Source of the DNA: an uncultured Bizionia sp.
GTDB taxonomy: Bacteria; Bacteroidota; Bacteroidia; Flavobacteriales; Flavobacteriaceae
Length of the DNA: 63,607 bases
Assembly: GCA_947496215.1 (NCBI GenBank)
Contig: CANMCF010000026.1
Span: 1-63,607, forward strand
Reading direction: 5' to 3'
Position 1 is the first letter of the stretch. The number at the start of each line of letters is the position of its first letter. This document shows, piece by piece, positions 9,013 to 54,639 of the stretch. A model generated the notes under the pieces. It was not told the DNA's origin, did no database searches, and saw nothing but the letters and a program-made list of their open reading frames with translations. Position numbers and translations under genes: made by a program.

Positions 9013-10998
9013 TTATAACGAGTCTATAATAGCATCATCAACATTGTTGGGCAGTGTTACCTTCAAGTTTGGCTCGATTTCCATGGCGCGTTTTATTGCA
9101 AAAACAGCTCCTTCGTTTCTAGCCCAGCTACGTCTTGAAATGCCATTGTTGACATCCCAAAATAACATTGATTTCAAACGCTTTGACGCTTCTTTAGTAC
9201 CATCAAGAACCATACCAAATCCACCATTTATTACTTCACCCCAGCCAACGCCTCCTCCGTTGTGGATACTTACCCAAGTTGCTCCTCTAAAACTATCTCC
9301 AATGACGTTATGAATGGCCATATCTGCTGTAAATCGAGATCCATCGTAAATGTTTGAAGTTTCTCGATACGGAGAATCCGTTCCAGAGACGTCATGGTGA
9401 TCACGCCCCAAGACAACGGTTTCAATGTCTCCTTTCGCAATGGCTTGGTTGAAGGCTTCTGCAATTTTTGCACGACCTTCTGCATCTGCATACAGTATTC
9501 TGGCTTGGGACCCAACTACCAATTTGTTTTCTTGGGCGCCTTTTATCCATCGTATGTTGTCCGCCATTTGTTGTTGGATTTCCTTTGGGGAATCTTTCAT
9601 TATTTCCTCCAGTACCTCACAGGCAATGGCATCTGTTTTCGTTAGATCTTCTGGGTTTCCAGAAGCACAAACCCAGCGAAATGGCCCAAAGCCATAATCG
9701 AAGCACATTGGCCCCATAATGTCTTGCACATAGCTTGGATATTTGAAATCGATGCCGTTTTCGGCCATTATATCTGCTCCCGCTCGAGAAGCTTCCAATA
9801 AAAAGGCGTTACCATAATCGAAGAAATAAGTACCTTTTGCCGTATGGTTGTTTATGGCATTTGTATGACGACGCAAGGTTTCTTGAACTTTGTCCTTAAA
9901 CAATTCAGGGTCGTTTGCCATCATTTCATTGGCATCTTCGAAAGAGATTCCAGTAGGGTAGTAGCCTCCTGCCCATGGGTTGTGCAATGAGGTTTGATCG
10001 CTTCCCAAGTCGATATGTATGTTCTCCGTGTCGAATTTTTCCCAGACATCGACAATGTTCCCCAAATATGCAATGGAAACGACTTCTTTGTTTTCTTGAG
10101 CCACTTTCACACGGGTCACCAGTTGATCCAAATCCTCTATCTTTTCGTTGATCCAACCTTGATCCAGTCGTACTTGGGTTATCTTGGGGTTCACCTCGGC
10201 ACAAACGGTTATGCATCCAGCAATGTTTCCTGCTTTTGGTTGTGCTCCGGACATTCCTCCCAAACCAGAGGTTACGAACAGATGCCCCTTAGGGCTTTTT
10301 CCTATTTTCCTGAATCCGTTTAAAACTGTTATGGTGGTTCCGTGTACGATACCCTGAGGACCAATGTACATGTAACTTCCAGCTGTCATTTGTCCATATT
10401 GGGTGACACCCAAGGCGTTGAACTTTTCCCAATCGTCCGGTTTCGAGTAATTGGGAATCATCATTCCATTGGTAACAACTACTCTTGGAGCTTCTCTATG
10501 GGATGGGAACAAGCCCATCGGGTGACCGGAATACATGACAAGTGTTTGCTCATCATTCATCTCAGCCAAGTATTTCATCGTCAGTCTGTACTGTGCCCAA
10601 TTGGAAAAGACACCTCCATTGCCACCATAGGTGATCAATTCATGGGGGTGTTGTGCCACTGCATAATCCAAATTGTTCTGGATCATCAACATTATCGCTG
10701 CTGCTTGCTTTGATTTTGCGGGGTATTCGTCTATGGGTCTGGCGTACATCCTGTAATCTGGACGCAAGCGATACATGTATATGCGCCCATAGCTGTCTAG
10801 TTCTTCTTTGAATTCCCTTATTAATGTTTCATGGTCTTTTTTCTCGAAGTAGCGCAATGCGTTCCTCAAAGCCAACTTTTCTTCTTCCTTGGATAGGATT
10901 GCCTTTCGTTTTGGCGCGTGATTTATTGATGGATCAAAAGGTTTTGCTGCAGATAATGTTGAAGGAATCCCTTCTAGAATTTGTTCTTTAAATGACAT
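9013..10998 (-). CDS. hutU: Urocanate hydratase
   Basis: The enzyme converts urocanate to 4-imidazolone-5-propionate, the second step of histidine degradation, using tightly bound NAD+ as electrophile. At 661 residues it is the long form usual in Bacteroidota; proteobacterial enzymes have about 555. Visible signatures are GGNGGVFSNWAQYRLTMKYL, YIGPQGIVHGT, the glycine-rich VTSGLGGMSGAQPKA of the NAD site, and FRWVCASGNPEDL, whose cysteine is C444. The Gly-rich IHNGGGVGWGEVINGGFG lies near the C-terminus. No hutH, hutI or hutG neighbour is present, so the pathway genes are dispersed or lie elsewhere. The protein is cytoplasmic. Confidence 0.97.
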   Translation of the reverse strand: MSFKEQILEGIPSTLSAAKPFDPSINHAPKRKAILSKEEEKLALRNALRYFEKKDHETLIREFKEELDSYGRIYMYRLRPDYRMYARPIDEYPAKSKQAAAIMLMIQNNLDYAVAQHPHELITYGGNGGVFSNWAQYRLTMKYLAEMNDEQTLVMYSGHPMGLFPSHREAPRVVVTNGMMIPNYSKPDDWEKFNALGVTQYGQMTAGSYMYIGPQGIVHGTTITVLNGFRKIGKSPKGHLFVTSGLGGMSGAQPKAGNIAGCITVCAEVNPKITQVRLDQGWINEKIEDLDQLVTRVKVAQENKEVVSIAYLGNIVDVWEKFDTENIHIDLGSDQTSLHNPWAGGYYPTGISFEDANEMMANDPELFKDKVQETLRRHTNAINNHTAKGTYFFDYGNAFLLEASRAGADIMAENGIDFKYPSYVQDIMGPMCFDYGFGPFRWVCASGNPEDLTKTDAIACEVLEEIMKDSPKEIQQQMADNIRWIKGAQENKLVVGSQARILYADAEGRAKIAEAFNQAIAKGDIETVVLGRDHHDVSGTDSPYRETSNIYDGSRFTADMAIHNVIGDSFRGATWVSIHNGGGVGWGEVINGGFGMVLDGTKEASKRLKSMLFWDVNNGISRRSWARNEGAVFAIKRAMEIEPNLKVTLPNNVDDAIIDSL

Positions 10999-11126: not shown

Positions 11127-11288
11127 CTATTTCTGCTTGTTTGTGTTCTTGTCATATCCATAAGGGCAATGTCTGCAACCACTTTCACAACAATAGCCTC
11201 TTTTTAGGTGATATTGCGCTGTGAAACACTTGTAGCCTTCCGGTGTCAAATAGTAATCCCCTTCTTCTATTGGAATGAGTTTCTTCAT
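11127..11288 (-). CDS. DUF5522 small cysteine-rich protein
   Basis: A 53-residue protein with the DUF5522 signature: EGDYYLTPEGYKCFTAQYHL, then KRGYCCESGCRHCPYGY. The cysteine cluster CC..GC.HCPYG suggests a metal- or Fe-S-binding knot, but the function is unknown. The start is placed at 11288 (MKKLIPIEEG). An upstream extension to 11339 would overlap the divergent neighbour and is foreign to the family. Confidence 0.85.
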   Translation of the reverse strand: MKKLIPIEEGDYYLTPEGYKCFTAQYHLKRGYCCESGCRHCPYGYDKNTNKQK

Positions 11289-11338
11289 ATATCGCAAATA
11301 TAATGTAAATTGGACTGATTTTTGAATGCTATAGAGCA

Positions 11339-11662
11339 ATGATTTTTTTTTCTAAATATTTAGTCCCAAAAGGTTATACGGGAATAACCATATTTCCTTT
11401 TGTTTTTCTAAAACACAAAGACTTAAAGGAGGACAAGGTGCTTGTCAATCATGAGAACATCCATTTGAAACAGCAACTGGAGTTGTTGGTGTTGCCTTTT
11501 TATGTCCTCTACTTCCTTGAGTTTGTCATAAGATTTGTCCAATACGGAAACTGGTACCGTGCCTACCGAGGCATTTCGTTTGAGAGAGAAGCCTATATAA
11601 ACGAAAACGACCTTGATTATTTGAAAACAAGGCCATTTTGGTGTTTTATGAAATATTTGTAA
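11339..11662 (+). CDS. Small membrane-associated protein with HENIH motif
   Basis: This 107-residue protein has a hydrophobic N-terminal segment, then HENIHLKQQLEL (about residues 38-49) and a membrane-like stretch LLVLPFYVLYFLEFVIRFV. A downstream FEREAY could give a third ligand. HExxH followed by a hydrophobic helix and a later Glu is the layout of minimal zinc peptidases, such as the M56/BlaR1-type or M48 core. I do not recognise a named family, and catalytic activity is inference. The gene diverges from the DUF5522 gene with about 50 nt between them. Confidence 0.65.
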   Translation: MIFFSKYLVPKGYTGITIFPFVFLKHKDLKEDKVLVNHENIHLKQQLELLVLPFYVLYFLEFVIRFVQYGNWYRAYRGISFEREAYINENDLDYLKTRPFWCFMKYL

Positions 11663-41000: not shown

Positions 41001-41011
41001 CTCTCGATACA

Positions 41012-41434
41012 TTGAAGAATGCCATACTTTATGTATTGAACGTATTTCTACTATTTGTGGAGGGGTATGATATTTTACCGAATTTTTCATTGGACAAGGA
41101 TGATTTTGAAAAAGTATATGGAATAGTCTCTTTTGTAAAGAAGGAAACCTATGAAGAATGAAGATCAAAGGATTACTTGTTTAAAAACATAATCAGGGAA
41201 TGGATCATAGTTACTCTAGCGGATAGGAACTACAAAGAATATTATGTTTCCGATATATACGAAGACTATTGGTCCAAGTTGCTAGGTCATGATATTGTTG
41301 GAAGGGGAATGGTACTGTATTTGGGGCTCGGAAAGGAAAAAGAAGACCCTTTTAGGATGGAGGTTGACGATGAGCTCATATACGATACCGATATACAATA
41401 TGGTAGAAATATACTTATTTTTATTATTGTCTAG
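41012..41434 (+). pseudogene. Broken gene of unknown family with an in-frame TGA
   Basis: One reading frame runs from just after lipB to 41434 and is interrupted only by TGA at 41159-41161. The upstream part reads like a genuine protein (LYVLNVFLLFVEGYDILPNF). The downstream part continues in the same frame (YLFKNIIREWIIVTLADRN, then EYYVSDIYEDYWSKLLGHD). There is no convincing start; a TTG at 41012 is the best available. No family is recognised. Most likely a decayed gene whose 5' end is gone. Confidence 0.5.
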
Positions 41435-41620
41435 CCTTGCTTTGATGGATCAATGAGTTGTGAATGATTGTCTATAGGGCAATGAGATGAGAAGTATGTG
41501 AAATTGCACACTAATCAATTGAAACTATTTTTGATATAGTGTATGCTTTGTGTAGAGGCCGTTGATTCGGTAGACGATTTTTATTGTTTGGTAATTAGTA
41601 GCTTTATAAGGCTTTAATGC

Positions 41621-41628
41621 TAATTTTG
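41621..41628 (+). promoter_or_regulatory. -7 element abutting the first TPR-HTH regulator
   Basis: TAATTTTG fits TAnnTTTG and ends 5 nt before the start codon. The same element and spacing recur before the paralogous regulator at 45379-45386. Transcription from it would start at or near the ATG. Confidence 0.4.
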
Positions 41629-41633
41629 CAATA

Positions 41634-43223
41634 ATGAAGCAAATACTCTTACTTATCTTTGTTCTCTTTAACTACTTTTCATTTTCTCAGGAAGCAGATA
41701 GTACATTAGAATGCTTGGAAGAAGCGCTAAAAACGGCGACTTCAGATACTTCTAAAATAAAGGCAATGTTAAATCTGGGAGAGTATGAGTTGGATCATAA
41801 CTTCAGTAAGGCAGAAGATGTCATTAATGGTGCATATGCTTTTGTTCAAGACAAGAAAACAGTATTGGGACAAAACTATGAGGCATTGGTACTTGTGGAA
41901 TTAGGCGTTTTAAAAAGGAGAAAAGGAAAACATACAGAGGCATTAAGTCATTATTTAAAAGCACTTGGTCTTTTTGAAAAAGAAAAAGATTCTGCTAACA
42001 TAGCTGATGTTTATCATAACATAGGAATGATTTACAAGTATGAAAAAGAGTATTCCAAATCCATGGAATATTTTAGGGAATCGATAAAGGTCAATGAATC
42101 TATAAACAATGAAATAGGAGTTGGAATAACATTTATGCTAATTGGGAGCAACTATAAGTCTCTAAGGCAATATGATTCTACAGAATGGTATTATAATAAA
42201 TCAAAAAAGATATTTACTGTATTAAATGACACTAAAAACTTTCAACGAGTTAATAACCATTTGGTGATATTATATCTCAGAACAGGAAGGGATGCGTTAG
42301 CCTTACAGCTAAGTAAAGATAATACCTCATACTCCAAAGAGAAAGGGGAGACTCTGAACTTGGTTTCTAATTACTTGACAACATCAAACATTTACTATAA
42401 GAGTAAAATGTATAGAGAAGCTGGACGTTTTGTAGATTCTGCATTAAGGTTAGCTAAGAAGGAAGGGTTTAAGCATAAGGTTACAGAAGGTTATGGAAAA
42501 AAAAGTAAATTATGGTCTAAATTAAAAAATTATAAATCGGCATATATTACTCATAAAATTTATAAAAAATATTCAGATTCGATTCATAACACCAATAATG
42601 TAAAGAAAATTCAAGAATTGGAATTAAAATATGTATTTGAAAAAGAAAAACTAAAAGACAGTTTACAATTTTCTCAAGAAAAAAGAGAAATTCAGTTAGT
42701 AGCAGATAGTGAGTCTTCTAAGAAAACACTCTATTTTATACTTTTAATAACAACGCTATTGCTTAGTGCAATTATTGCCTTTTTAGTAAAAAGAGATTTT
42801 AAATATAAAAAACGCTTACTAGAATTAGAAAATAAAACGCTATTAGAAGAAAAAGAACAAATAACACTGGCCTTCGAAAACTTAAAAAATAGTGCTAACG
42901 AAGAAGAACGTGTAAAGGCAAAACAAGATATTTTAAAACTTAAAATTTTAACAGAGGACGATTGGAATCATTTTAAAAATAAATTTGAATTGCTCTATCC
43001 CAATTTTTTTAACCTTTTATATATGTCAGGTTTTCAATTCACAAAATCTGAAACCCGATTTTTAATTCTAAAGAAATTAGATTTAGAAACTAAAGAAATT
43101 GCTAATATGACAGGAGTTTCTAATGATAGCGTATTAAAAACCCAATACAGACTTCGAAAAAAGCTAGACTTATCAAAAACTACGGATATCATAAATTACA
43201 TAGAGCAAGGCGTTGGACGTTAG
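41634..43223 (+). CDS. Transmembrane TPR sensor with cytoplasmic LuxR-like HTH, paralogue A
   Basis: This 529-residue one-component regulator starts with a signal peptide (about 1-19). TPR-type repeats (about 50-340, e.g. ADVYHNIGMIYKYEKEYSKS) are followed by one membrane helix (about 366-385). A coiled coil (about 387-440) leads to a C-terminal LuxR-like helix-turn-helix (about 469-513: KSETRFLILKKLDLETKEIA, then SNDSVLKTQYRLRKKLDL). The layout puts the TPRs in the periplasm and the HTH in the cytoplasm. Such TPR-TM-HTH regulators are known in Bacteroidota, mostly with unknown ligands. No kinase or receiver domain is present. It lies directly upstream of a surface-protein gene. Leucine codon use shifts toward TTA in its 3' half. 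Confidence 0.75.
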   Translation: MKQILLLIFVLFNYFSFSQEADSTLECLEEALKTATSDTSKIKAMLNLGEYELDHNFSKAEDVINGAYAFVQDKKTVLGQNYEALVLVELGVLKRRKGKHTEALSHYLKALGLFEKEKDSANIADVYHNIGMIYKYEKEYSKSMEYFRESIKVNESINNEIGVGITFMLIGSNYKSLRQYDSTEWYYNKSKKIFTVLNDTKNFQRVNNHLVILYLRTGRDALALQLSKDNTSYSKEKGETLNLVSNYLTTSNIYYKSKMYREAGRFVDSALRLAKKEGFKHKVTEGYGKKSKLWSKLKNYKSAYITHKIYKKYSDSIHNTNNVKKIQELELKYVFEKEKLKDSLQFSQEKREIQLVADSESSKKTLYFILLITTLLLSAIIAFLVKRDFKYKKRLLELENKTLLEEKEQITLAFENLKNSANEEERVKAKQDILKLKILTEDDWNHFKNKFELLYPNFFNLLYMSGFQFTKSETRFLILKKLDLETKEIANMTGVSNDSVLKTQYRLRKKLDLSKTTDIINYIEQGVGR

Positions 43224-43238
43224 TTTATTGAGTGAAAC

Positions 43239-43295
43239 TGTCCTGTTTTTGTCCAGTAATGTTTAGCATTTCCTTATGATTAACACTTAGGTTTG
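43239..43295 (+). promoter_or_regulatory. Tandem operator plus -7 element of the beta-solenoid gene
   Basis: TGTCCTG (43239-43245) and TGTCCAG (43250-43256) form a direct repeat with an 11-bp period, one helical turn. TAGGTTTG (43288-43295), an exact TAnnTTTG, follows after 30 nt of spacer from the end of the GTCCAGT box. A -33 TTG is absent, which fits an activator-dependent promoter. The promoter at 47005-47062 has the same plan. Confidence 0.6.
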
Positions 43296-43326
43296 CATAC
43301 AATTATACAACCCTAGTAAATCTATC

Positions 43327-45276
43327 ATGAAAAAAATAATATTAAGTATTTGTGCAATACTATGTAGTACCACTGCCATGGCGCAAACAGGAAATTATTT
43401 GTCCGGCGGTACTGTACAACCAGACGCTAATACTCCAGCGCCATACGATGGTACCACGACTATTGGTGCTCCAGGTTCATCTCTAAACAATTCAGCAGAT
43501 CATAATACACTTATAGGAGAAGGAGCAGGTGCTTCATTATCTTCTGGAGACCAAAACGTATTTTTAGGAACAGCAGCTGGCGCATTATTAGAAGGGAGTT
43601 CTGCCGATAATGTAATTATTGGTGCATTTGCAGCTGATCAAACTGATGACTCATTTTTATTAGATAATGTAATCATTGGCGCTAGAGCTGCAAGAACACT
43701 AGAGGGTAATGATAATATTGTAATTGGTAATGAAGCAGGTGAAGTAATGACAACAGCGGATGACAATGTTATTATTGGCACTCAAGCAGGAGAAAACTTA
43801 ACAACAGGAAATGATAATGTTTTTATTGGAGACTTTGCAGGAGGAGATACAACGACAGCTTCAGATAATGTTTTTATAGGAGATAAATCGGGGTACTATA
43901 ATACCACAGGAGATGATAACGTTTTTGTTGGTGAACAAACGGGTTATAATAACACTACAGGAGTGAGTAATGTTTTCATTGGTGGCTATGCAAATACGTC
44001 AACAGATGGGCTCTATTCGGCTTATAGTAATACTGGGGGAGCAAATACAACAGGTAGCAATAATACCTTTTTAGGAGCTGGTGCTGGTGGTGAGAATAAG
44101 ACAGCATCTGAAAATACATTTATAGGATCTCAAGCAGGAGACCAAAACGAATATGCAAATTTTAATACGTTTGTAGGTTTTCAAGCGGGAACAAGAAATA
44201 ATGTTAGTAGAAATATTAACGATGCAATGAATAATACGTTTGTGGGTTGGCGAGCAGGCGTATTAAATGAAGAAGGTTATAATAATGTAGTAATGGGGTA
44301 CGATGCTGGTTTTAATAATGACGGAAGTTACAATAGTGTTGTTATTGGGTATTTAGCAAAAATTAATAGTAATGATAATAATGATAGATACAATAGCGTC
44401 ATTCTTGGTGCAAATGCAGAAACCTCAAACAACAATACTATTGCTTTGGGGGCTAATGCAAATGCTTCAGGAAATTATGCCGTTGCAATAGGCTCCAATG
44501 CTATTGCAACTACAAACAATAGTATGGTTCTTGGAGGCGTTACCAATACAGATCGGGTGAGTGTAGGTATTGCAACGGGAACGCCTAATCAAAATGCATC
44601 ATTAGATTTAGCAGACACAGATAAAGGTTTGTTATTAAATAGAGTAACCAATGCAGAACGCACAGCTATGATTACTGCTCCAGCTTCGGGTGTTGCTTTA
44701 ACCTCTACAGACGCAGGTTTAATGGTGTACGATACAGAGGATAAATTACTCTACATCTGGGACGGAACACAATGGGGAGAAGTAGGCTCTAATGCAGGTT
44801 CTGGTGTAAGTGCTGTACCAGAATTATTAAACTATCAAGCATCTGTACGAGATGCTTCAGGAGATATACTAGCAAATCAATCCGTAAGTTTTAGAATGTC
44901 TATAATCGATGTCATTTCAGGAAGTACTACTGTGTATTCAGAAACACATGAGGTTACGACATCTAATAATGGTTTGGTTAATTTTGAAATTGGAGGAGGA
45001 ACAATTGTTTCTGGTTTATTTACAGATATCGATTGGTCTCATAACAATGCTTTGCAAATAGAATTAGATACTACAGGCGGAACAACTTACATTGTTATGG
45101 GGACAACCTCATTTGTAAGTGTGCCTTATGCATTACGTGCAAAGTATGCAGAGAATATAACGTCATCAACCAATGCGAAAATAAGTGACACCTCTAAAGA
45201 TGATAGAATTAAAGCATTGGAAAAAGAAGTACAAGAGTTGAAAAAACTAATGAATCAGATTATCAAGAAGAATTAA
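43327..45276 (+). CDS. Secreted beta-solenoid repeat protein with trimeric-fibre features
   Basis: The 649-residue exported protein has a signal peptide (about 1-20). About 320 residues follow of imperfect 16-20-residue repeats of the type NVFIGDFAGGDTTTASD or NTFIGSQAGDQNEYA, resembling YadA/Hia head repeats that form trimeric beta-rolls. At about 421 comes a GIGTT-like module (ASLDLADTDKGLLLNRV and GLMVYDTEDKLLYIWDGTQW). Next is a beta domain (about 498-617, NYQASVRDASGDILANQSVS) known from many flavobacterial surface proteins. A C-terminal coiled coil (RIKALEKEVQELKKLMNQII) could trimerise the fibre. There is no T9SS sorting domain. Its promoter suggests control by the TPR-HTH regulators. 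Confidence 0.7.
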   Translation: MKKIILSICAILCSTTAMAQTGNYLSGGTVQPDANTPAPYDGTTTIGAPGSSLNNSADHNTLIGEGAGASLSSGDQNVFLGTAAGALLEGSSADNVIIGAFAADQTDDSFLLDNVIIGARAARTLEGNDNIVIGNEAGEVMTTADDNVIIGTQAGENLTTGNDNVFIGDFAGGDTTTASDNVFIGDKSGYYNTTGDDNVFVGEQTGYNNTTGVSNVFIGGYANTSTDGLYSAYSNTGGANTTGSNNTFLGAGAGGENKTASENTFIGSQAGDQNEYANFNTFVGFQAGTRNNVSRNINDAMNNTFVGWRAGVLNEEGYNNVVMGYDAGFNNDGSYNSVVIGYLAKINSNDNNDRYNSVILGANAETSNNNTIALGANANASGNYAVAIGSNAIATTNNSMVLGGVTNTDRVSVGIATGTPNQNASLDLADTDKGLLLNRVTNAERTAMITAPASGVALTSTDAGLMVYDTEDKLLYIWDGTQWGEVGSNAGSGVSAVPELLNYQASVRDASGDILANQSVSFRMSIIDVISGSTTVYSETHEVTTSNNGLVNFEIGGGTIVSGLFTDIDWSHNNALQIELDTTGGTTYIVMGTTSFVSVPYALRAKYAENITSSTNAKISDTSKDDRIKALEKEVQELKKLMNQIIKKN

Positions 45277-45378
45277 AGCGTTAATATTTGATGAGGTATT
45301 TCTTTTAGAATGAATCAACATGCTACCAAAGCATGAAAAACAGGATACTCTTTTTACCAGTTAATCATTTAGAATTGG

Positions 45379-45386
45379 TAATTTTG
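45379..45386 (+). promoter_or_regulatory. -7 element abutting the second TPR-HTH regulator
   Basis: TAATTTTG lies 4 nt before the start codon, as in the paralogous regulator. A -33 TTG is not obvious. Confidence 0.4.
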
Positions 45387-45390
45387 AATA

Positions 45391-46989
45391 ATGAAAAGAG
45401 TTTCATTTATTTTCTTTCTGTTTATTTCTTGGACAGCTATTTCTCAAGACGTAGACACTACTTTGGTACGATTGCAAGGTGTTTTAGAAAGTGCTGTATT
45501 AGATTCAGCAAAAGTTGAAGCTTTGCTGGATTTAGGAAAACATCAATTTGGAAGAGACAATTATAGTGCAGAAGATTATCTTTTAACTGCTATTAATTTT
45601 ATAGAAAATAAACCGTATACATCAAATGATCAATTAGCCGTAGCGTATCGTGTATTGGGTGCTGTGGAAAGAAGAAAAGGAAACTACAAGAAGACATATG
45701 CGTATTATTATAAGTCTTTACGTCTGTCTTCAGACTCAGCACATGTGGCAACAGTACATCACAATTTAGGAGCAGCTAAGTTCTTTCAAAAGGATTACTC
45801 TGAAGCATTGGTTGAGTTTCGTAAAGCAATTGCTATATGGGAAGTGTTGGGAGAATATGCAGATGCTGGCGGAAGTTATAATGAAATGGGTGGAATATAT
45901 AATACGCTGAGACAAGTCGATTCTGCTCGGTTTTATTACGATAAAGCAATAAAGTTATTTGCCGAAGGCTATAAAAAAGACACCCTAAATTACACAAATA
46001 GATATTATGGCATCCAGAATAGTTTGGGTTTTATTTTATTATGCGAAAGAAAATATGATAGTGCGCTTTCAAATTTCAATAGGGCGAGAGCACATTTTTC
46101 TAAACCTGGAGGAGATAAGAGTAGATTAATTCTAGTAAACCGTTATATTTCTGAATTGTATTACCGTCAGAAAAACTATAAGAAAGCCCTATTCTATGAA
46201 AATGAAGCATTATCCATAGGACTTTCAGAAGGATTGAGGCATCGTGTTGCAAATGCCTTGAAGAAACGAAGTAAGTTGTATGAGAAAATGGGTAAACCAG
46301 AAGCAGCTCTTAAAGACTACATATTATACAAAACCTATTCAGATTCTCTTATTAATGCAGAAACCATAAGGAAGGTTCAAGCTCAGGAATTGGGATATCA
46401 ATTCGAAAAAGAGAAGCTGTCCGATAGCTTAGCATTTGCAGAAGAAAAAAGAAAAATTGAATTGATGGCAGATAATGAATCTTCTAAGAAAAAAATATAT
46501 TTCGCTCTTTTAATAATAACACTATTGCTAAGTGCTATTATTGCCTTTTTAGTGAAAAGAGATTTTAAACATAAAAAACGTGTATTAGAGTTGGAGAATA
46601 AAACCTTACTAAAGGAAAAAGAACAAATTACTATTGCTTTTGAGACATTAAAGAATAGTACAAATGCTGAAGAACGCATAAAAGCAAAGCAAGACATCTT
46701 AAAACTAAAAATCTTAACAGATGAAGAGTGGAATCATTTTAGAAGTAAATTTGAATTGCTATATCCCAACTTCTTAAACATTTTAAATGCATCTGCTTAT
46801 CAATTCACAAAATCTGAAATCAGATTTTTAATTCTAAAGAAATTAGATTTAGAAACATTGGAAATTGCTAATATGATAGGTGTTTCTAATGATAGTGTAT
46901 TAAAAACTCAATACAGGCTTCGTAAAAAGTTGGACTTGTCAAAAAACACTGATATTATTGGGTATGTAGGGCAAGGTTTTGATTTTTAA
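45391..46989 (+). CDS. Transmembrane TPR sensor with cytoplasmic LuxR-like HTH, paralogue B
   Basis: The 532-residue protein has the same plan as paralogue A: a signal peptide (about 1-18), TPR repeats (about 55-340, VHHNLGAAKFFQKDYSEALV), a membrane helix (about 369-389), a coiled coil and a LuxR-like HTH (about 471-516). From the membrane helix to the C-terminus the two proteins are nearly identical (SAIIAFLVKRDFK, LELENKTLL, KAKQDILKLKIL and SNDSVLKTQYRLRKKLDLS are shared). The TPR halves are much more different. It precedes the 2437-residue surface protein with about 100 nt between them. Confidence 0.75.
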   Translation: MKRVSFIFFLFISWTAISQDVDTTLVRLQGVLESAVLDSAKVEALLDLGKHQFGRDNYSAEDYLLTAINFIENKPYTSNDQLAVAYRVLGAVERRKGNYKKTYAYYYKSLRLSSDSAHVATVHHNLGAAKFFQKDYSEALVEFRKAIAIWEVLGEYADAGGSYNEMGGIYNTLRQVDSARFYYDKAIKLFAEGYKKDTLNYTNRYYGIQNSLGFILLCERKYDSALSNFNRARAHFSKPGGDKSRLILVNRYISELYYRQKNYKKALFYENEALSIGLSEGLRHRVANALKKRSKLYEKMGKPEAALKDYILYKTYSDSLINAETIRKVQAQELGYQFEKEKLSDSLAFAEEKRKIELMADNESSKKKIYFALLIITLLLSAIIAFLVKRDFKHKKRVLELENKTLLKEKEQITIAFETLKNSTNAEERIKAKQDILKLKILTDEEWNHFRSKFELLYPNFLNILNASAYQFTKSEIRFLILKKLDLETLEIANMIGVSNDSVLKTQYRLRKKLDLSKNTDIIGYVGQGFDF

Positions 46990-47004
46990 TGGTTTATGTT
47001 TAAT

Positions 47005-47062
47005 TGTCTAGTTTTTGTCCAGTGTTATTTCACTGTTTTTAATGGTTTTTGCCATAGGTTTG
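47005..47062 (+). promoter_or_regulatory. Tandem operator plus -7 element of the giant LRR gene
   Basis: TGTCTAG (47005-47011) and TGTCCAG (47016-47022) repeat with an 11-bp period. TAGGTTTG (47055-47062) follows, 31 nt after the GTCCAGT box. The box GTTTTTGTCCAGT and the stretch after the -7 (CAYACRATTA...AACCC) are shared with the promoter at 43239-43295. Confidence 0.6.
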
Positions 47063-47095
47063 CACACGATTAAATAACCCAAAGCAAAATCCATC

Positions 47096-50000
47096 ATGAA
47101 GCAGCAAGTCCTACTTATTGTAACATTATTCTTGTCATTGCATTTTCAAGCCCAAGACTGTTCCTCGTTAATGGAACCGGTATCTCTTCATAACCGTACA
47201 AACGAAGCCACGCTTATTATAGAAGGAGAAGTCATCAATAGTACTAGCTACTGGGATACTGCTCATCAAAATATTTATACCATTCATGAAGTTACTGTAT
47301 ATAAAAATGCTAAAGGTGACAATGAAGTTACTGTTTTTGTTGAAACTTTAGGGGGAATAGTTGGGGATGATATGCAAACAACATCAAGTTCAGCTAGTTT
47401 GAATGAAGGAGATGTTGGGGTGTTTTTTTTAAAAAACTCCAATGTCATATTTTCAAATGGGCAACAAACCTATCAGATGGTAGCGGCAGCTCAAGGTTAT
47501 ATTAGGTATAATAAAATGGATAATACTGCTACAGATGTTTTTAATAAATATACATCTGTAGAAAATGAGTTATACCAAAGGCTTGAATTGGCTACTAATA
47601 AAAAGATGCAATTTGTGCAAGAACGTATCGTAAATACTGTGCCAAGCTCTGCATTTGCCATACCAGTAATAACAAGTTTTACACCTACAATTGCAAGTGC
47701 AGGAACTGGAACTACAATAACAATTTCAGGGTCTTCTTTTGGTACAGCTTTAGGGCAGGTATTGTTTCCAACAGCTAACAATGGAGGTGTGACATATACT
47801 GCTGCTAAAGATACGCAAATCGTAATTTGGTCAGACCAAATAATTATAGTTAAAGTACCTTATACTGCAGGCACAGGTACCATTCAAGTTTTGAATGCTT
47901 CAGGTACCACAACAAGCACAGGGACACTCACAATTCCTTATAGTCATAGCAATGCCAGTTCAATAACTACAGATTATCCTAGAACAATGCAAAGTAGTAG
48001 TGGAGGCGTGACTTTCGATTATCATACCGATTTTAATACCAGCGCAGCAAAACCTTATTTTGAACAAGCATTTGGTTTGTGGAACTGCGAGAGCGGAATC
48101 AATTTTGCTTTTGGTACTACCACTACAACAGATGTTACAGCAGATGATGGTATTAACATTGTGCGTTTTGACAACGGAAACGAATTACCTTCTGGAGTTT
48201 TAGGGCAAGTAACCACAAGAGCATCTCAGATTTGTAGTGTCACTGGAAATGCCCTGGCTAGAGAAATGGATATTACCTGGAACGATGATTTTAATTTTTA
48301 TTATGGTGATGGAACACCCGGTGTTACCCAATACGATTTTAAAACTGTAGCCTTACATGAATTAGGGCATACACATCAATTAAATCATATTATTAACTCT
48401 AATAACATTATGCATTATAACCTTGGACCAGGAGTGTCTAAGTTTAATTTATCTACAGATGATATTGATGGTGCAAATTATACGATGTCTGTTTTTACAG
48501 ACGCATCACAATGTAGTGCTATGACAGCTAATAGTCAATGTACCTTTGTTCCTGATGATAATTTTGAAGCTTATTTAGAGGCGAATAACATGGGGAATGG
48601 TATAGATGGGGACGATTTAGTTACTACAACCAATATTTCTGGAGTTACTTACTTGAGTGTTTCGAGTCAAGGGATATCTGATTTTACAGGAATTGAAGAT
48701 TTTAGTGCATTAGAAACTTTATTCGTTTTTAGCAATACAATGTCAACTATAGACTTAACTTCAAATGTAAATTTAAAAGACTTTAGATGTAGTTCTTCAT
48801 CTTCATTAACAACCATAAACATTGCTACATTAACTGCTTTAGAAACTTTAGATATCGCTGGTACTGCTATATCTACAATTGATGTAAGTAATAATACTGC
48901 TTTAAAGACAGTTTGGGCAGGAGCTGCAGGAATAACTTCACTTGATGTTAGTAATAACATTTCACTGGATTTTTTACATATTTCAAATTCATCCATAACG
49001 AATTTGGATCTTAGCGCTAATAGTGTACTAACACAATTTTTTGCACAGAATGCTGCTTTAGAAAGTTTAAATATTAAAAACGGAAATAATACTAATATTA
49101 CAACGTTTCTTGCAACAGGTAATACAAACTTAGGATGTGTAACGGTGGATGATGCCCTATATTCAACTACTAATTGGACTAGTGTTGATGCTACTACCTC
49201 GTTTAATGAAAATTGTGATGCTACAATTTATGTTCCTGATGATAATTTTGAAGCCTACTTAGAAACACATGATGTTTCAGGAAACTCTGTAAGCGTAGGT
49301 AATGTGTCTAGTATGGGTAATGGAATAGCAAATGATAATTATGTGTATACTTACCGTACTTCTGGAGTGACAAACTTAGCCATAAATAACTTAGGGATTA
49401 CTGATTTAACAGGTATTGAAGCTTTTTTAAGTATTGTAACTCTAGAATCTCATGGTAATAGTTTAACTTCAATAAATTTAAACAATAATATAAATCTAGA
49501 ATATCTTAAATTGGGAAGTAATGTAGGATTAACAACTATTAATCTTTCAACCCTAACCTTATTAAAAGAGCTTTGGTTATATGATTCAGGATTAACAACT
49601 TTAGACATCTCAAATAACATAGATTTAGAAAATTTATATGTTTTTAATACAGAGATAGATGCATTAAACGTAAGTGCAAATTCAGCTTTAATTGATTTAA
49701 GATGTCATAGTAATAATTTAACAAGTTTGGATGTAAGCAATAATCCTTTGCTAACGATACTTATTGCTGAAAATAATAATATTTCTACTACTACATTATA
49801 TAATAATAATGTTTTAGATATATTAGATTTATCTGGTAATAATTTAACAGTAATAGATGTTAGTCAACATATAGCTATAAGTTCTCTTGATTTAGCAGAT
49901 AACATTATAAGCACTTTAGACCTTAAAACAAATACAAACTTAGCAAGTATTATTGTTAATGATAATGAACTAACAGAACTTGATGTAAGAAATGGTAACA

Positions 50001-53000
50001 ATAGTGCTATTTCAGATAGTGGTTTTAGAACCTCAGGAAACCCTAATTTAGCGTGTATAAATGTAGATAGTGAAAGCTACTCTACAACAAATTGGACAAC
50101 TTATGTAGATGGTACGTCATCTTTTAATGAGCATTGTAACGAAACGTTTGTACCAGATGATAATTTTGAAAATTATTTAGAAACACATGATGCCTCAGGA
50201 AATACAGTTGCTGTTGGTCATGCAACTAGTATGGGTAATGGTGTTGCTAATGATAATTATGTTACAACGACTGCCATTAATACCGTTTCTGGATTAAATA
50301 TTTCTGGATTAAATATAAGTGATCTAACTGGTATAGAAACTTTCTTAGCATTAGAAACATTAGTTTGTAATAATAATAATTTAACCACATTAGATATAAG
50401 TGCTAATATTAATTTAATTGGATTGTATGCTAATGATAATGGATTAACGTCTATTAATTTTGGTTCAATAACAACATTACTAATTGTTAACTTAAGTATT
50501 AATGAATTAATAGATCTTGATCTTACCATGTTATCTAATTTAGTTGGTTTGAATGTTTCTAATAATGAGCTAATAAGTTTAAATCTTAAAAATGGAGCTA
50601 ATACCTTATTAGATACAAATTCGGATTTTTATGCTACCGGGAATCAAAACTTAAGTTGTATTAACGTAGATGACGAGGTTTTCTCATCGGCAACATGGCA
50701 GAATATTGATTCCACAACATCATTTAGTGAGCATTGTGGGCTCACTTATGTCCCTGATGATAATTTTGAACAACGACTAGTTGATTTAGGTTATGATACT
50801 GGTACATTAGATGATTATGTGCCTACCAGTTTAATTTCAGGAGTAACATTCTTAGACGTAAGAAATAAAAGTATTGCAGATTTAACAGGAATTGAAGGTT
50901 TTACAGCTTTGGAAACATTATTTTGTGATTCTAATGATTTAACAACAATTAATACCAGTCAAAACATAGCACTATTTAATCTAAGGTGTTATGGTAATCA
51001 AATTTCATCATTAGATCTTAGTACAAACACTAACCTACAATATTTAAGCGCATCACCTAATAATTTAACCACTTTAGATTTAGAGTTTAATACAGCTTTA
51101 AAAGAAGCCTTTTTAAATAATAACGATTTAATAGCATTAAATTTAGATACATGTGTCTCTTTAGAAAGATTACAAGTAAATGGTAATAATTTAAGTTCAT
51201 TAAGTATTGTTAATGGGAATAATATAAATATTACAGAGTTTACTGCGGAGAACAACCCCTACCTTACGTGTATAAATGTTGATGATGAAACAGCATCGTA
51301 TTTAAGTACTTGGAGTAAAGATGCAACGGCTTCTTTTAGTATACATTGTAATGAAACGTATGTGCCCGATGATAACTTTGAAAATTACTTAGAAACGCAT
51401 GATGCTTCAGGAAACATAGTTACTGTAGGTGATTCTAGTAGTATGGGGAATGGTATAGCTAACGATGACTATGTAACTACGGCAAACATTAATGCAGTAA
51501 CGAGTTTAAATGTTGTTAGGAAGAATATCGCCGATCTTACTGGTATTGCTGATTTTGTAACATTAGAAGTGTTGTCTTGTGGGGATAATTTATTAGAGGA
51601 ATTAGATGTGAGTCAAAACTTGCTATTGACTCAATTATATTGCGGTGAAAATCAATTAACCAATTTAGATGTAACTCAAAATACAGCATTAATTGAATTA
51701 TCTTGTTTCAGTAATGCTATAGATAATTTGGATGTAACCCAAAACATAGCATTAATAGAAATTAATTGTTCCTTAAATCAAATTGAAAATTTAGATGTAA
51801 CTCAAAATACAGCATTAACAGATTTAGAATGTGATTCCAATCAAATTACAGCTTTAGATGTTACTCAGAATATAGCATTAATATATTTTGATTGTCAAAA
51901 TAATCAAATTACAAGTTTAGATCTAACACAAAACATAGTTTTAAATGAGTTTTACTGTAATGAAAATACATTGACCTATTTAAACCTTAAGAATGGTAAT
52001 AATTTAAATTTAGATCTGTATGCCGATCAAAACCCAAATCTCTACTGTATTAATGTAGATGATACGTCGGCAGCTTATTTAAGTTCTTGGACAAAAGACG
52101 CAACGGCTTCTTTCAGCGAACATTGTTATGAAACCTATGTTCCTGATGATAATTTTGAAAATTATCTAGAAACACATGACACTTCAGGTAATGTAGTTAC
52201 TATAGGTGATGTTAGTAGTATGGGTAACGGTATTGCAAATGATGATTATGTAACTACTGTAAATATAGAATCTGTTGCGAGCTTGACTATGTCAAATAAA
52301 TCAATTGTAGACATGGCTGGTATTGAAGGATTTATAGCTATAGAAACGTTAATTGTTCCAGTAAATACATTTCCTACTTTAGATTTGAGCAGTAATATTA
52401 ATTTAAAAGCACTGACCTGTAGTTATAATTCAAGTTTAATAAGTATTAATGTTAGCTCAAATACATTATTAGAAAGTATTACTTGTGGTGAATCAGCTAT
52501 TGCTTCATTAGATTTAAGCGGAAACCCCCAGTTGAAATATTTAACCTGTGATTCAACTCAAATAACAAGTTTAGACTTGAGTAATAATCTTTTAATAGAA
52601 ACAATTTTTGCAGTGAATAATGACTTGATAGAGTTAGATTTATCACTTAATATTACTTTGTTGGATGTAAATGTTTCTAATAACAACTTAACGGAATTTA
52701 ATATTAAAAATAGTAATAATACAAGTATAACAGGTTTTGACATAACATCAAATCCAAACCTTACTTGTATAAATGTAGATGATGCTACGTACTCCACTAC
52801 TAATTGGACAAATATTGATGCAACAGCATCTTATGGAGAACATTGTTATGAAACCTATGTTCCAGATGATATTTTTGAAGCATATTTAGAGACGCATGAT
52901 GACTCAGGGAATACAGTTACTGTAGGAGACACTGCTAGTATGGGGAATGGTATTGATGGTGATGGCTATGTAACTACGAGTGCCATTGAAAATGTAGTTT

Positions 53001-54409
53001 CATTAGAATTACCATACCAAATACCAGGACCAGGGCAAGTAATTGATCCTGCAACTTTGATATCAGATTTAACAGGTCTAGAAGGTTTTATTGCTTTAGT
53101 GAATTTTGATATTCGTTTTCAGAATATAATCAATTTAGATGTTACCGAAAACATAAATTTAGAAACGTTAACCTGTTATGATAGTACAGTAGCTAATTTG
53201 GATGTTAGTACAAACCTACAATTGGAATCATTGGTTTTTTCAGGGAATGAAATAGAGACATTAGATATAACTAATAATACACAATTAGTAAAACTATTTG
53301 CTACAGATAATAATATCACCGATATAGACCTTAGTAATAACACTTTATTAGAAGAGGCGCGTCTTAATTTCAATCAATTAAGTGTAATAGATTTTAGTAA
53401 CAATACGTTATTAAAAGAAGTATTTTTGAACAATAATCAACTTGCTTCCGTAAATCTTAAAAATGGAAACAATGCTATTATAATTTCATTTATTGCGACC
53501 GGAAATAGTAATCTTACTTGTGTACTAGTAGATGACACTACTTATTCAACTACAAATTGGACCAACATAGATGCTCAAACTAGTTATAACGATGTGAGTT
53601 GTGATCTTCAAATTTTACCAAAAGTATTCTTGCAAGGAGCCGCTTTAAACCCAAATACAGGAGAAGAGACATTAATGCGAGATGATTTAAGAATAGCAGG
53701 TTATATACCTACGAGTTCTCCTTATAATCTAGACTCTATAGATACAGCAATATTAAATGTTACAGGTGCAAATGCTATTGTAGATTGGGTATATGTAGAA
53801 TTAAGAGGCGCCAATGATAATACATTTATTGTTGCAAATACAAGTGCATTATTACAACGCGATGGAGATGTCGTTAGTTTAGATGGTGTGTCTCCAGTTA
53901 ACATAAACATACCATCAGGAGATTATTATGTTAGTATTAAGCATCGCAATCACTTAGGGATTATGACGGCTACTACCATAGCATTGTCTAGCACAGCAAC
54001 AACAGTCGATTTTATAGATGCAGCCAACCCAATTACTTTTGGAACAGATGCGCAAACCACCTTTGGAATGCCAAGTGGTGTAGAAGCCATGTGGGCAGGA
54101 GATGCAAATGGAGATGGGCGATTAAATTATTCAGGTGGGCAATCTGATGTGCCAAGCATAAGAAGTCAAGTGTTTAATGATCCAGACAACTCCGTATTTG
54201 GCGGCCCTCCAGTGGCCAGTTATCCTTCACAAGGCTATGATGGAACAGATACGAATTTAGACGGTAATACAGTGTATTCAGGAACAGCGAGTGATGTTTT
54301 GTACATAAGGAACAATATTTTCAACAATCCATCGAATTCGGTATTTGGAGGGCCGCCAACATCAACATATTTGTTTACACAACAATTGCCAGAAGGCGCA
54401 AATAATTAA
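47096..54409 (+). CDS. Giant secreted metzincin-like protein with IPT/TIG and seven leucine-rich blocks
   Basis: The 2437-residue exported protein has a signal peptide (about 1-19) and an N-terminal domain, then an IPT/TIG domain (about 190-280, PVITSFTPTIASAGTGTTIT). A zinc metalloprotease domain follows, with HELGHTHQLNH (H421, E422, H425, H431) and the later Met in NNIMHY, the metzincin layout. Seven blocks begin with VPDDNFE-type motifs at about residues 484, 711, 1018, 1218, 1422, 1681 and 1921. Each holds 21-22-residue leucine-rich repeats (LDVTQNTALIELSC type). Most end in a C.NVDD...W...AT.S...HC cap. The C-terminal part (from about 2174) has a calcium-loop-like DANGDGRLNY and a second NLDGNTVYSG. 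I see no classical T9SS sorting domain. Probably a surface adhesin or protease. Confidence 0.75.
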   Translation: MKQQVLLIVTLFLSLHFQAQDCSSLMEPVSLHNRTNEATLIIEGEVINSTSYWDTAHQNIYTIHEVTVYKNAKGDNEVTVFVETLGGIVGDDMQTTSSSASLNEGDVGVFFLKNSNVIFSNGQQTYQMVAAAQGYIRYNKMDNTATDVFNKYTSVENELYQRLELATNKKMQFVQERIVNTVPSSAFAIPVITSFTPTIASAGTGTTITISGSSFGTALGQVLFPTANNGGVTYTAAKDTQIVIWSDQIIIVKVPYTAGTGTIQVLNASGTTTSTGTLTIPYSHSNASSITTDYPRTMQSSSGGVTFDYHTDFNTSAAKPYFEQAFGLWNCESGINFAFGTTTTTDVTADDGINIVRFDNGNELPSGVLGQVTTRASQICSVTGNALAREMDITWNDDFNFYYGDGTPGVTQYDFKTVALHELGHTHQLNHIINSNNIMHYNLGPGVSKFNLSTDDIDGANYTMSVFTDASQCSAMTANSQCTFVPDDNFEAYLEANNMGNGIDGDDLVTTTNISGVTYLSVSSQGISDFTGIEDFSALETLFVFSNTMSTIDLTSNVNLKDFRCSSSSSLTTINIATLTALETLDIAGTAISTIDVSNNTALKTVWAGAAGITSLDVSNNISLDFLHISNSSITNLDLSANSVLTQFFAQNAALESLNIKNGNNTNITTFLATGNTNLGCVTVDDALYSTTNWTSVDATTSFNENCDATIYVPDDNFEAYLETHDVSGNSVSVGNVSSMGNGIANDNYVYTYRTSGVTNLAINNLGITDLTGIEAFLSIVTLESHGNSLTSINLNNNINLEYLKLGSNVGLTTINLSTLTLLKELWLYDSGLTTLDISNNIDLENLYVFNTEIDALNVSANSALIDLRCHSNNLTSLDVSNNPLLTILIAENNNISTTTLYNNNVLDILDLSGNNLTVIDVSQHIAISSLDLADNIISTLDLKTNTNLASIIVNDNELTELDVRNGNNSAISDSGFRTSGNPNLACINVDSESYSTTNWTTYVDGTSSFNEHCNETFVPDDNFENYLETHDASGNTVAVGHATSMGNGVANDNYVTTTAINTVSGLNISGLNISDLTGIETFLALETLVCNNNNLTTLDISANINLIGLYANDNGLTSINFGSITTLLIVNLSINELIDLDLTMLSNLVGLNVSNNELISLNLKNGANTLLDTNSDFYATGNQNLSCINVDDEVFSSATWQNIDSTTSFSEHCGLTYVPDDNFEQRLVDLGYDTGTLDDYVPTSLISGVTFLDVRNKSIADLTGIEGFTALETLFCDSNDLTTINTSQNIALFNLRCYGNQISSLDLSTNTNLQYLSASPNNLTTLDLEFNTALKEAFLNNNDLIALNLDTCVSLERLQVNGNNLSSLSIVNGNNINITEFTAENNPYLTCINVDDETASYLSTWSKDATASFSIHCNETYVPDDNFENYLETHDASGNIVTVGDSSSMGNGIANDDYVTTANINAVTSLNVVRKNIADLTGIADFVTLEVLSCGDNLLEELDVSQNLLLTQLYCGENQLTNLDVTQNTALIELSCFSNAIDNLDVTQNIALIEINCSLNQIENLDVTQNTALTDLECDSNQITALDVTQNIALIYFDCQNNQITSLDLTQNIVLNEFYCNENTLTYLNLKNGNNLNLDLYADQNPNLYCINVDDTSAAYLSSWTKDATASFSEHCYETYVPDDNFENYLETHDTSGNVVTIGDVSSMGNGIANDDYVTTVNIESVASLTMSNKSIVDMAGIEGFIAIETLIVPVNTFPTLDLSSNINLKALTCSYNSSLISINVSSNTLLESITCGESAIASLDLSGNPQLKYLTCDSTQITSLDLSNNLLIETIFAVNNDLIELDLSLNITLLDVNVSNNNLTEFNIKNSNNTSITGFDITSNPNLTCINVDDATYSTTNWTNIDATASYGEHCYETYVPDDIFEAYLETHDDSGNTVTVGDTASMGNGIDGDGYVTTSAIENVVSLELPYQIPGPGQVIDPATLISDLTGLEGFIALVNFDIRFQNIINLDVTENINLETLTCYDSTVANLDVSTNLQLESLVFSGNEIETLDITNNTQLVKLFATDNNITDIDLSNNTLLEEARLNFNQLSVIDFSNNTLLKEVFLNNNQLASVNLKNGNNAIIISFIATGNSNLTCVLVDDTTYSTTNWTNIDAQTSYNDVSCDLQILPKVFLQGAALNPNTGEETLMRDDLRIAGYIPTSSPYNLDSIDTAILNVTGANAIVDWVYVELRGANDNTFIVANTSALLQRDGDVVSLDGVSPVNINIPSGDYYVSIKHRNHLGIMTATTIALSSTATTVDFIDAANPITFGTDAQTTFGMPSGVEAMWAGDANGDGRLNYSGGQSDVPSIRSQVFNDPDNSVFGGPPVASYPSQGYDGTDTNLDGNTVYSGTASDVLYIRNNIFNNPSNSVFGGPPTSTYLFTQQLPEGANN

Positions 54410-54539: not shown

Positions 54540-54639
54540 ATGAAAAAAACAATTACTATTCGTGTTGTTATGCATTGGTGTTTCATTCCCACAAGAAACC
54601 TATATGCTAGACGATGATTTTGAACAAGCCTTAGAATAA
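54540..54639 (+). pseudogene. Frameshifted relic of a VPDDNFE-type leucine-rich repeat protein
   Basis: An ATG opens MKKTITIRVV. In the next frame a signal-peptide-like stretch continues (LCIGVSFPQETYMLDDDFEQ, then ALE and a stop). ETYMLDDDFEQ matches the ETYVPDDNFE block start of the giant gene just upstream. One frameshift joins the two parts. The rest of the gene is missing. It looks like a decayed copy of a protein of the same family. Confidence 0.6.

Follow-up and report, generated by a model that had tools for sequence, protein, structure and literature searches.

Two one-chain TPR-TM-HTH regulators with unlike sensors and a shared predicted operator precede surface-protein genes in an uncultured Bizionia

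Introduction

Two genes for TPR-TM-HTH proteins, each followed on the same strand by the gene of a large surface protein, raise the question of what these regulators control and whether the locus is a single sensing module present twice. The window analyzed here is a complete contig of 63,607 bp (C26) from an uncultured Bizionia sp., whose genome (G000) comprises 4.95 Mb in 132 contigs. TPR-TM-HTH proteins are known in Bacteroidota. In a literature search mostly outside subscription papers, we found no published operator for such proteins and no publication describing the wiring of regulator, operator, and surface protein. We consider it likely that the two regulators, RegA and RegB, are membrane-spanning one-component activators with local regulons, that output domain and operator change together in this group, and that two unlike sensors are connected to one operator in the window.

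Architecture of RegA and RegB

41634–43223, + strand: RegA, 529 aa, with a signal-like N terminus, a TPR sensor, a TM segment, and a C-terminal HTH output at about residues 431–515 (ORF, Pfam, AlphaFold, fold search, hydrophobicity)
45391–46989, + strand: RegB, 532 aa, laid out as RegA, with a different TPR sensor and the same output type (ORF, Pfam, identities, hydrophobicity)

The open reading frames of both regulators and both targets were recovered exactly where the first-pass annotation had placed them. Pfam detects TPR repeats in RegA and RegB, which are followed by a single strong hydrophobic segment (peak residues 367–385 in RegA and 369–387 in RegB). No kinase or receiver domain was matched in either protein by Pfam or NCBIfam, in agreement with the initial description of one-chain TPR-TM-HTH regulators that dispense with both. 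The model of the kinase FimS (NF053520) covers only the TPR/TM part (residues 3–399 of RegA and 6–402 of RegB) and scores 71.7 and 53.9 bits, respectively, at a cut-off of 600 bits.

The HTH matches the Pfam family GerE (PF00196) with an E value of 0.11 and 12.5 bits, under the cut-off of 23.5. The AlphaFold model of the output domain has a pLDDT of 82. It gave no structural match in the PDB at E ≤ 0.001; NarL/GerE/LuxR-type proteins make up most of the best rows (E 0.3–0.5), for example the DNA-binding domain of VraR (probability 1.00, TM to target 0.77, rmsd 1.7). A PDB sequence search with the output profile returned one match, a sigma-H factor (E 0.012). Because the fold rows are mostly NarL/GerE/LuxR-like and the sequence match is a sigma-H factor, the domain may be either GerE-like or sigma-region-4-like. 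Sensor, TM segment, and a DNA-binding domain predicted from this weak but consistent fold match are thus combined in one chain, and RegA and RegB apparently sense on the outer side of the inner membrane and bind DNA on its inner side.

Target proteins of the window

43327–45276, + strand: Target 1, a YadA-head/mosaic-adhesive-trimer-like fiber, 649 aa (ORF, Pfam YadA_head repeat, NCBIfam Bdello_MAT_N)
47096–54409, + strand: Target 2, a metzincin-like/TIG/LRR protein, 2437 aa, with a signal-like N terminus (ORF, Pfam)
53567–54406, + strand: C-terminal domain of Target 2, which recurs on targets of relatives and has no Pfam match (comparison with relatives' targets, Pfam)
54544–54639, + strand: non-intact remnant similar to the N terminus of another LRR-type target (read by eye)

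Target 1 matches Bdello_MAT_N with an E value of 1.2e-8 and 34.9 bits (cut-off 60). Target 2 contains matrixin (PF00413), TIG, and LRR domains of Pfam. A putative zinc-binding sequence, HELGHTHQLNH, can be read in it, which we take to deviate in a single residue from the usual metzincin form. The two proteins had been annotated as a β-solenoid and a metzincin/LRR surface protein, respectively; Pfam bears out the latter name, and the 649-residue protein is better called a YadA/MAT-like fiber.

Among the 397 family genomes, at least 42 encode the C-terminal domain of Target 2 (FLQGA...GEE.LMRDDLR), and the open frames that carry it range from 165 to 3043 aa. It belongs to no Pfam family, and NCBIfam gives only a match at E 0.1. 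A fold model of this domain was dropped as too poor (pLDDT 42), and its weak sequence matches in the PDB (best E 0.016) were disregarded.

The remnant at 54544–54639 consists of a signal-like segment followed by ETYMLDDDFEQALE, to be compared with ETYVPDDNFE, and suggests that a further target gene was lost at this position. The coding stretch upstream of RegA (41001–41633) looks decayed, its long frame being interrupted. In G002, a genome of the same genus, the region upstream of RegA contains a 765-aa fiber gene whose end is about 740 bp away.

Distribution and gene order in relatives

Regulator homologues are found at E 1e-50 in 6 of 397 family genomes and by profile at 1e-70 in at least 10 of 397. 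Counts from this profile search and from the survey of the C-terminal domain are lower bounds, with 3 and 6 candidates, respectively, scored per genome. At 1e-100, a Kordia genus search found homologues in 3 of 11 genomes (rows G406 and G398:C4:523763 were left out of examination), and a third genome of the window's genus contains none at 1e-20. A scan of genome contigs yielded nine loci, of which L045 was discarded, its match covering only 25 residues. The system of regulator and surface protein is patchy across relatives.

We defined close homologues by an E value of at most 1e-190, a cut-off chosen post hoc with the rows already in view. The 17 proteins so defined were all drawn from regulator-driven searches and comprise eight rows of the family profile search, seven of the Kordia genus search, and the Psychroserpens and Lacinutrix loci. 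Thirteen have a same-strand surface-protein gene (LRR/C-terminal-domain or YadA type) directly next. Three are followed by another regulator of the same array, and those arrays lead to a surface-protein gene; the last (G158) has a fiber gene upstream instead. Among the less similar rows of the family search, only 1 of 11 (G117) is directly followed by a surface-protein gene. Linkage of the regulator to a large exported protein, as first proposed, is therefore borne out by the neighborhoods of the close homologues (13 of 17 versus 1 of 11). One of six distant HTH relatives in the window's own genome is also followed by a surface-protein gene.

The alternation of regulator (R) and target (T) that the first-pass annotation had emphasized is not conserved. 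The window has the order A-fiber-B-LRR (R-T-R-T), G002 the order A-B-fiber-fiber-LRR-LRR (R-R-T-T-T-T, the last LRR frame being interrupted), and both Kordia genomes the order A-(158-aa TM-HTH)-B-LRR-LRR (R-r-R-T-T).

A shared predicted operator in the window

43239–43256, + strand: Operator 1, TGTCCTGTTTTTGTCCAG, a head-to-tail repeat with an 11-bp period, one of only two sites in the window's own genome
47005–47022, + strand: Operator 2, TGTCTAGTTTTTGTCCAG, likewise one of these two sites

Both target gaps of the window carry the 18-bp pattern TGTC[CT][AT]G-TTTT-TGTCCAG (TGTCYWG-TTTT-TGTCCAG), here called the type II operator. With up to one mismatch, Operators 1 and 2 are its only occurrences in the 4.95 Mb of the genome, and the reversed control gives none; the shared target promoters postulated from the window are thus real. 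No operator site was found in the window before RegA, RegB, or the 303-aa gene.

Exact type II sites number two in the window's own genome (both before targets), three in G002, five in Kordia G397, and three in Kordia G398. Those of G002, G397, and G398 all lie inside the regulator/surface-protein cluster, and the reversed control matched in none of these four genomes. A scan of 10 genomes gave five further sites with one mismatch (reversed control, one match in G158). Only one of the five stands beside a regulator and a target, between a previously unseen TPR-HTH gene and an LRR gene of G098:C6; the other four are in unrelated loci (G002:C6, G158:C12, G397:C1, and G397:C13). In 249 family genomes, the exact pattern matched eight times (reversed control 0), five times in G000 and G002 and three times in polysaccharide-type loci that have no close RegA/B homologue. 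The type I pattern described below has seven exact matches in the 10 genomes (reversed control 0) and two in the 249 genomes, both in G098:C8 (reversed control 1).

At the three polysaccharide loci (L107, L108, and L109 in G247, G021, and G003), an exact TGTCTAGTTTTTGTCTAG precedes genes of presumably sulfatase, glycosidase, or SusC-like character. In G247, a more distantly related TPR-TM-HTH gene is located about 3 kb from the site, and related outputs may also control polysaccharide loci. The 158-aa sensorless TM-HTH protein of the two Kordia genomes (L038 and L039, 11636–12112) has a type II output and an operator of its own upstream.

We also considered that the site might be a 3′ element of the regulator gene. 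This was ruled out because sites also precede targets that are not behind regulators, such as LRR1984 of G002 and the second of the LRR genes in G098:C8.

Promoter layout

43288–43295, + strand: −7 box TAGGTTTG of the fiber promoter, offset 31 from Operator 1 (alignment of sites)
47055–47062, + strand: −7 box TAGGTTTG of the LRR promoter, offset 32 from Operator 2 (alignment of sites)

The operators of the window end 31–32 nt before a TAnnTTTG −7 box. In the available text on Flavobacterium psychrophilum, TAnnTTTG is the sigma-A −7 box and spans −12 to −5 (PMC9723704), which would place the operator at about −62 to −45. The spacing is a preferred one: TA...TTG starts 31–33 nt past the operator in 20 of 26 sites, whereas composition shuffles average 1.4 such sites and never exceed 4. 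Among the six exceptions, three lack TA...TTG, and in the other three the box lies at 43–44 nt, farther away by roughly one turn of the helix. No conserved −33 element was found among the 26 sites.

For counting across intergenic gaps, a wide layout was defined as a repeat of period 10–12 ending 31–33 nt before the −7 box, a form that had been widened to period 12 and TT[GA] after L073 was seen. Only gaps of 50–600 bp were counted, and six overlapping loci were omitted. The wide layout is present in 14 of 22 regulator-to-target gaps versus 9 of 171 other gaps (shuffles, about 5%; Fisher 2.5e-10, for loci that are not independent), and in 13 of 21 when L080, fetched because of its operator, is set aside. 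Two of the eight regulator-to-target gaps that lack it have an operator with a −7-like box at 43–44 nt. The remaining classes score 3 of 9 (regulator to regulator), 6 of 28 (targets not behind a regulator), 2 of 29 (the regulators themselves), and 2 of 10 (other genes behind regulators).

Because the wide form had been loosened on seeing L073, a strict form (period 10–11, TA...TTG) was run as well, which is found in 11 of 22 regulator-to-target gaps versus 5 of 171 others. Eleven of the 22 gaps had helped to reveal the layout. Among the 10 that were neither used for noticing it nor fetched by operator, four have the strict form (versus 5 of 171, p 0.0005), one of which, L074, had been seen by eye beforehand. 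The layout thus reaches past the loci that suggested it, though not to all. A layout scan of 17 regions matched five, including L071, already known, and L074, whose site was first seen by eye.

From the position of the operator relative to the −7 box, we infer that the regulators activate. One-component regulators can also repress, and the sign of regulation is not readable from sequence, so that RegA and RegB might hold the same promoters silent until freed by a periplasmic signal. We regard this as unlikely, however, because in 20 of 26 sites 31–33 nt separate the end of the operator from the −7 box, which the operator never overlaps, and because the absence of a conserved −33 box suits an activator.

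Operator type follows output type

Type II outputs go with TGTCCAG-type sites (n = 13); the sites that go with type I outputs are of the TGYYAC type and have a period of 10 (n = 12). These sites were gathered type by type; a looser pattern admitting both types gave no crossed pair of output and operator. Kordia G398 contains both operator types on one contig, each behind the matching regulator.

This pairing bears on the possibility that some other factor binds the shared site, with the neighboring TPR-TM-HTH genes as passengers. Three exact type II sites have no close RegA/B homologue beside them, and four of the five one-mismatch sites lie in unrelated loci, as such a factor would allow. Nevertheless, site type tracks the adjacent HTH, not the sensor, at every listed site (13 of type II, 12 of type I), which together with the lack of crossed pairs and the arrangement in G398 makes a foreign factor very unlikely.

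Further half-sites accompany further outputs. TGACAC-N4-TGACAC is found in Lacinutrix (layout scan) and Kordia (by eye, then by scan), and the corresponding regulators pair on both trees, starred for the sensor only. GCACCC-N6-GCACCC occurs in Kordia L073 and in L034 of G321, whose HTHs form one clade (100/100); at L034, the target lies upstream of the regulator. TGCGAC-N4-TGCTAC stands beside a further pair, in G002 (scan) and Kordia (by eye).

Some loci depart from the arrangement in the window. On contig C7 of the window's own genome (L088, 3271–10786), a propeller/Y_Y_Y sensor with a related HTH precedes a 1392-aa YadA-like fiber, and the layout match there, TGTACCC-ATTT-TGTCCCC, is a repeat of period 11 with the usual spacing to a −7-like box. 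In G001, the gene of a 1805-aa target follows that of a 7TMR-DISM protein carrying such an HTH, with no layout match at that place. Two regulators of G321 are followed by operators but by no adhesin. On the minus strand of L071 (G321:C1, about 9250–9530 and 11160–11360), two tandem TPR-TM-HTH genes are each followed by a type I operator and a −7 box, after which comes a short stretch, similar in both cases, with a terminator-like stem at its end. These stretches are possibly small RNAs or tiny genes that serve as targets.

Different evolutionary histories of sensor and output

RegA and RegB are about 31–34% identical in the sensor, 81% in the TM/linker region, and 79% in the HTH, so that their outputs as a whole are 79–81% identical. 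Between RegA and the Psychroserpens regulator, identity is 73% in the sensor and 31% in the HTH. The switch in identity along the chain falls at about residues 330–375, before or at the TM segment, indicating that juxtamembrane region, TM segment, and HTH move together. The Psychroserpens operator, TGCCAC-TTTT-TGTCAC, precedes an LRR target that is 57% identical to that of the window over about 1,890 residues. Sensor and target thus appear to have been retained while output and operator changed.

The trees of the two halves are incongruent. The sensor tree groups the A proteins of the window and G002 with the Psychroserpens protein (98/97) and the Kordia A proteins with three type I regulators (99/98). 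In the output tree, all type II rows (n = 10) fall together (100/100); in the sensor tree, they are separated. AU tests reject type II as a single sensor clade (p 0.0002), the A sensors and Psychroserpens as a single output clade (p 2.7e-20), and monophyly of the four type II A sensors (p 6e-5); these p-values are optimistic because the groups were named after the identities had been seen. Three changes of output type fall on the sensor tree, which we read as a sign of repeated output exchange inside arrays.

Nucleotide identities were considered for concerted evolution or recent conversion. The A and B HTHs of Kordia G398 are 96% identical in amino acids and 88% in nucleotides, and the two Kordia B orthologues 83% and 81%. 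At third codon positions of shared residues, the two comparisons are nearly equal (78% versus 76% over 84 codons), and the A protein of Kordia G397 shows the opposite pattern to G398, which leaves this candidate weak.

That the locus is a duplicated regulator-target module, as the R-T-R-T order and the 79–81% identical outputs had suggested, is barely credible, because the sensors are only 31–34% identical and fall in separate clades of a contradicting tree, the targets are of different kinds, the likeness is confined to the output half, and neither G002 nor Kordia keeps the order.

Proposed mechanism

In the activator scheme that we prefer, the periplasmic TPR sensor would read a signal, and the chain would cross the inner membrane once. 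The cytoplasmic HTH, probably in the form of a head-to-tail dimer, is predicted to occupy the direct repeat (about −62 to −45) and would then recruit RNA polymerase to a promoter that has a good −7 box and lacks a conserved −33 box. The sequences themselves show the architecture, the common operator and how rare it is in the genome, its favored spacing, the linkage to targets, the incongruence of sensor and output, and the pairing of operator with HTH; signal, binding, dimer form, and activation rather than repression are the parts of the scheme that we infer. As far as near-exact sites show, the regulon would consist of the adjacent surface-protein genes only. Because A and B share one output type, two different signals would feed one operator, resulting in OR logic or, if A and B form heterodimers, in a joint decision. 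Across relatives, the output half (juxtamembrane region, TM segment, and HTH) would be exchanged between sensors, and the adjoining operators would change too.

A wider reading, of which we are less than convinced, is that of an exchangeable kit across Flavobacteriaceae. Varied periplasmic sensors (TPR, propeller/Y_Y_Y, perhaps 7TMR-DISM) would be fused to related HTH outputs, each with its own half-site (TGTCCAG, TGYCAC, TGACAC, GCACCC, or TGCGAC) in one head-to-tail promoter layout. Output and local operators would switch together, and the exchange of outputs within arrays would keep unlike sensors on one operator, with membrane heterodimers possibly deciding jointly before surface fibers are made.

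Operator, promoter position, and the pairing of HTH and site together predict targets and make the control of giant LRR and fiber proteins directly testable. The data also offer a natural experiment on rewiring, in which sensor and target stay constant, output and operator differ, and the target is not lost.

Comparison with known systems

Regulators of the ToxR/CadC type combine a periplasmic sensor, one TM segment, and a cytoplasmic DNA-binding domain in one chain without a phosphorelay, and carry a winged OmpR-type output at the N terminus. RegA and RegB likewise join sensor, single TM segment, and putative cytoplasmic DNA-binding domain in one chain. However, their order is inverted (sensor N-terminal, HTH C-terminal), their sensor consists of TPRs, and their output is GerE- or sigma4-like instead of winged OmpR-like; Pfam gave no winged OmpR match in either protein.

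The HTH region also matches the BT3442 family (NF053779; E 2.9e-6 for RegA and 4.6e-5 for RegB), but the scores of 26.3 and 22.3 bits are far under the 940-bit cut-off. BT_3442 is a TPR protein encoded in a cluster with MACPF and lipoprotein genes, and the accessible sections of that study neither treat it as a regulator nor give it an operator (PMC2954219). FimS of Porphyromonas (NF053520) resembles RegA and RegB in the TPR/TM region, whereas its model is that of a histidine kinase, the kinase part of which is unmatched in both. On the target side, Target 1 resembles the mosaic adhesive trimer fibers of Bdellovibrio through its Bdello_MAT_N match, under the cut-off; these belong to another organism, and the accessible sections of their description contain no such regulator (PMC10769870). 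Reg_prop/Y_Y_Y proteins with an HTH also occur in Bacteroidota; the example on contig C7 of the window's own genome places a related HTH before a YadA-like fiber in the same promoter layout, with a propeller sensor in place of the TPRs.
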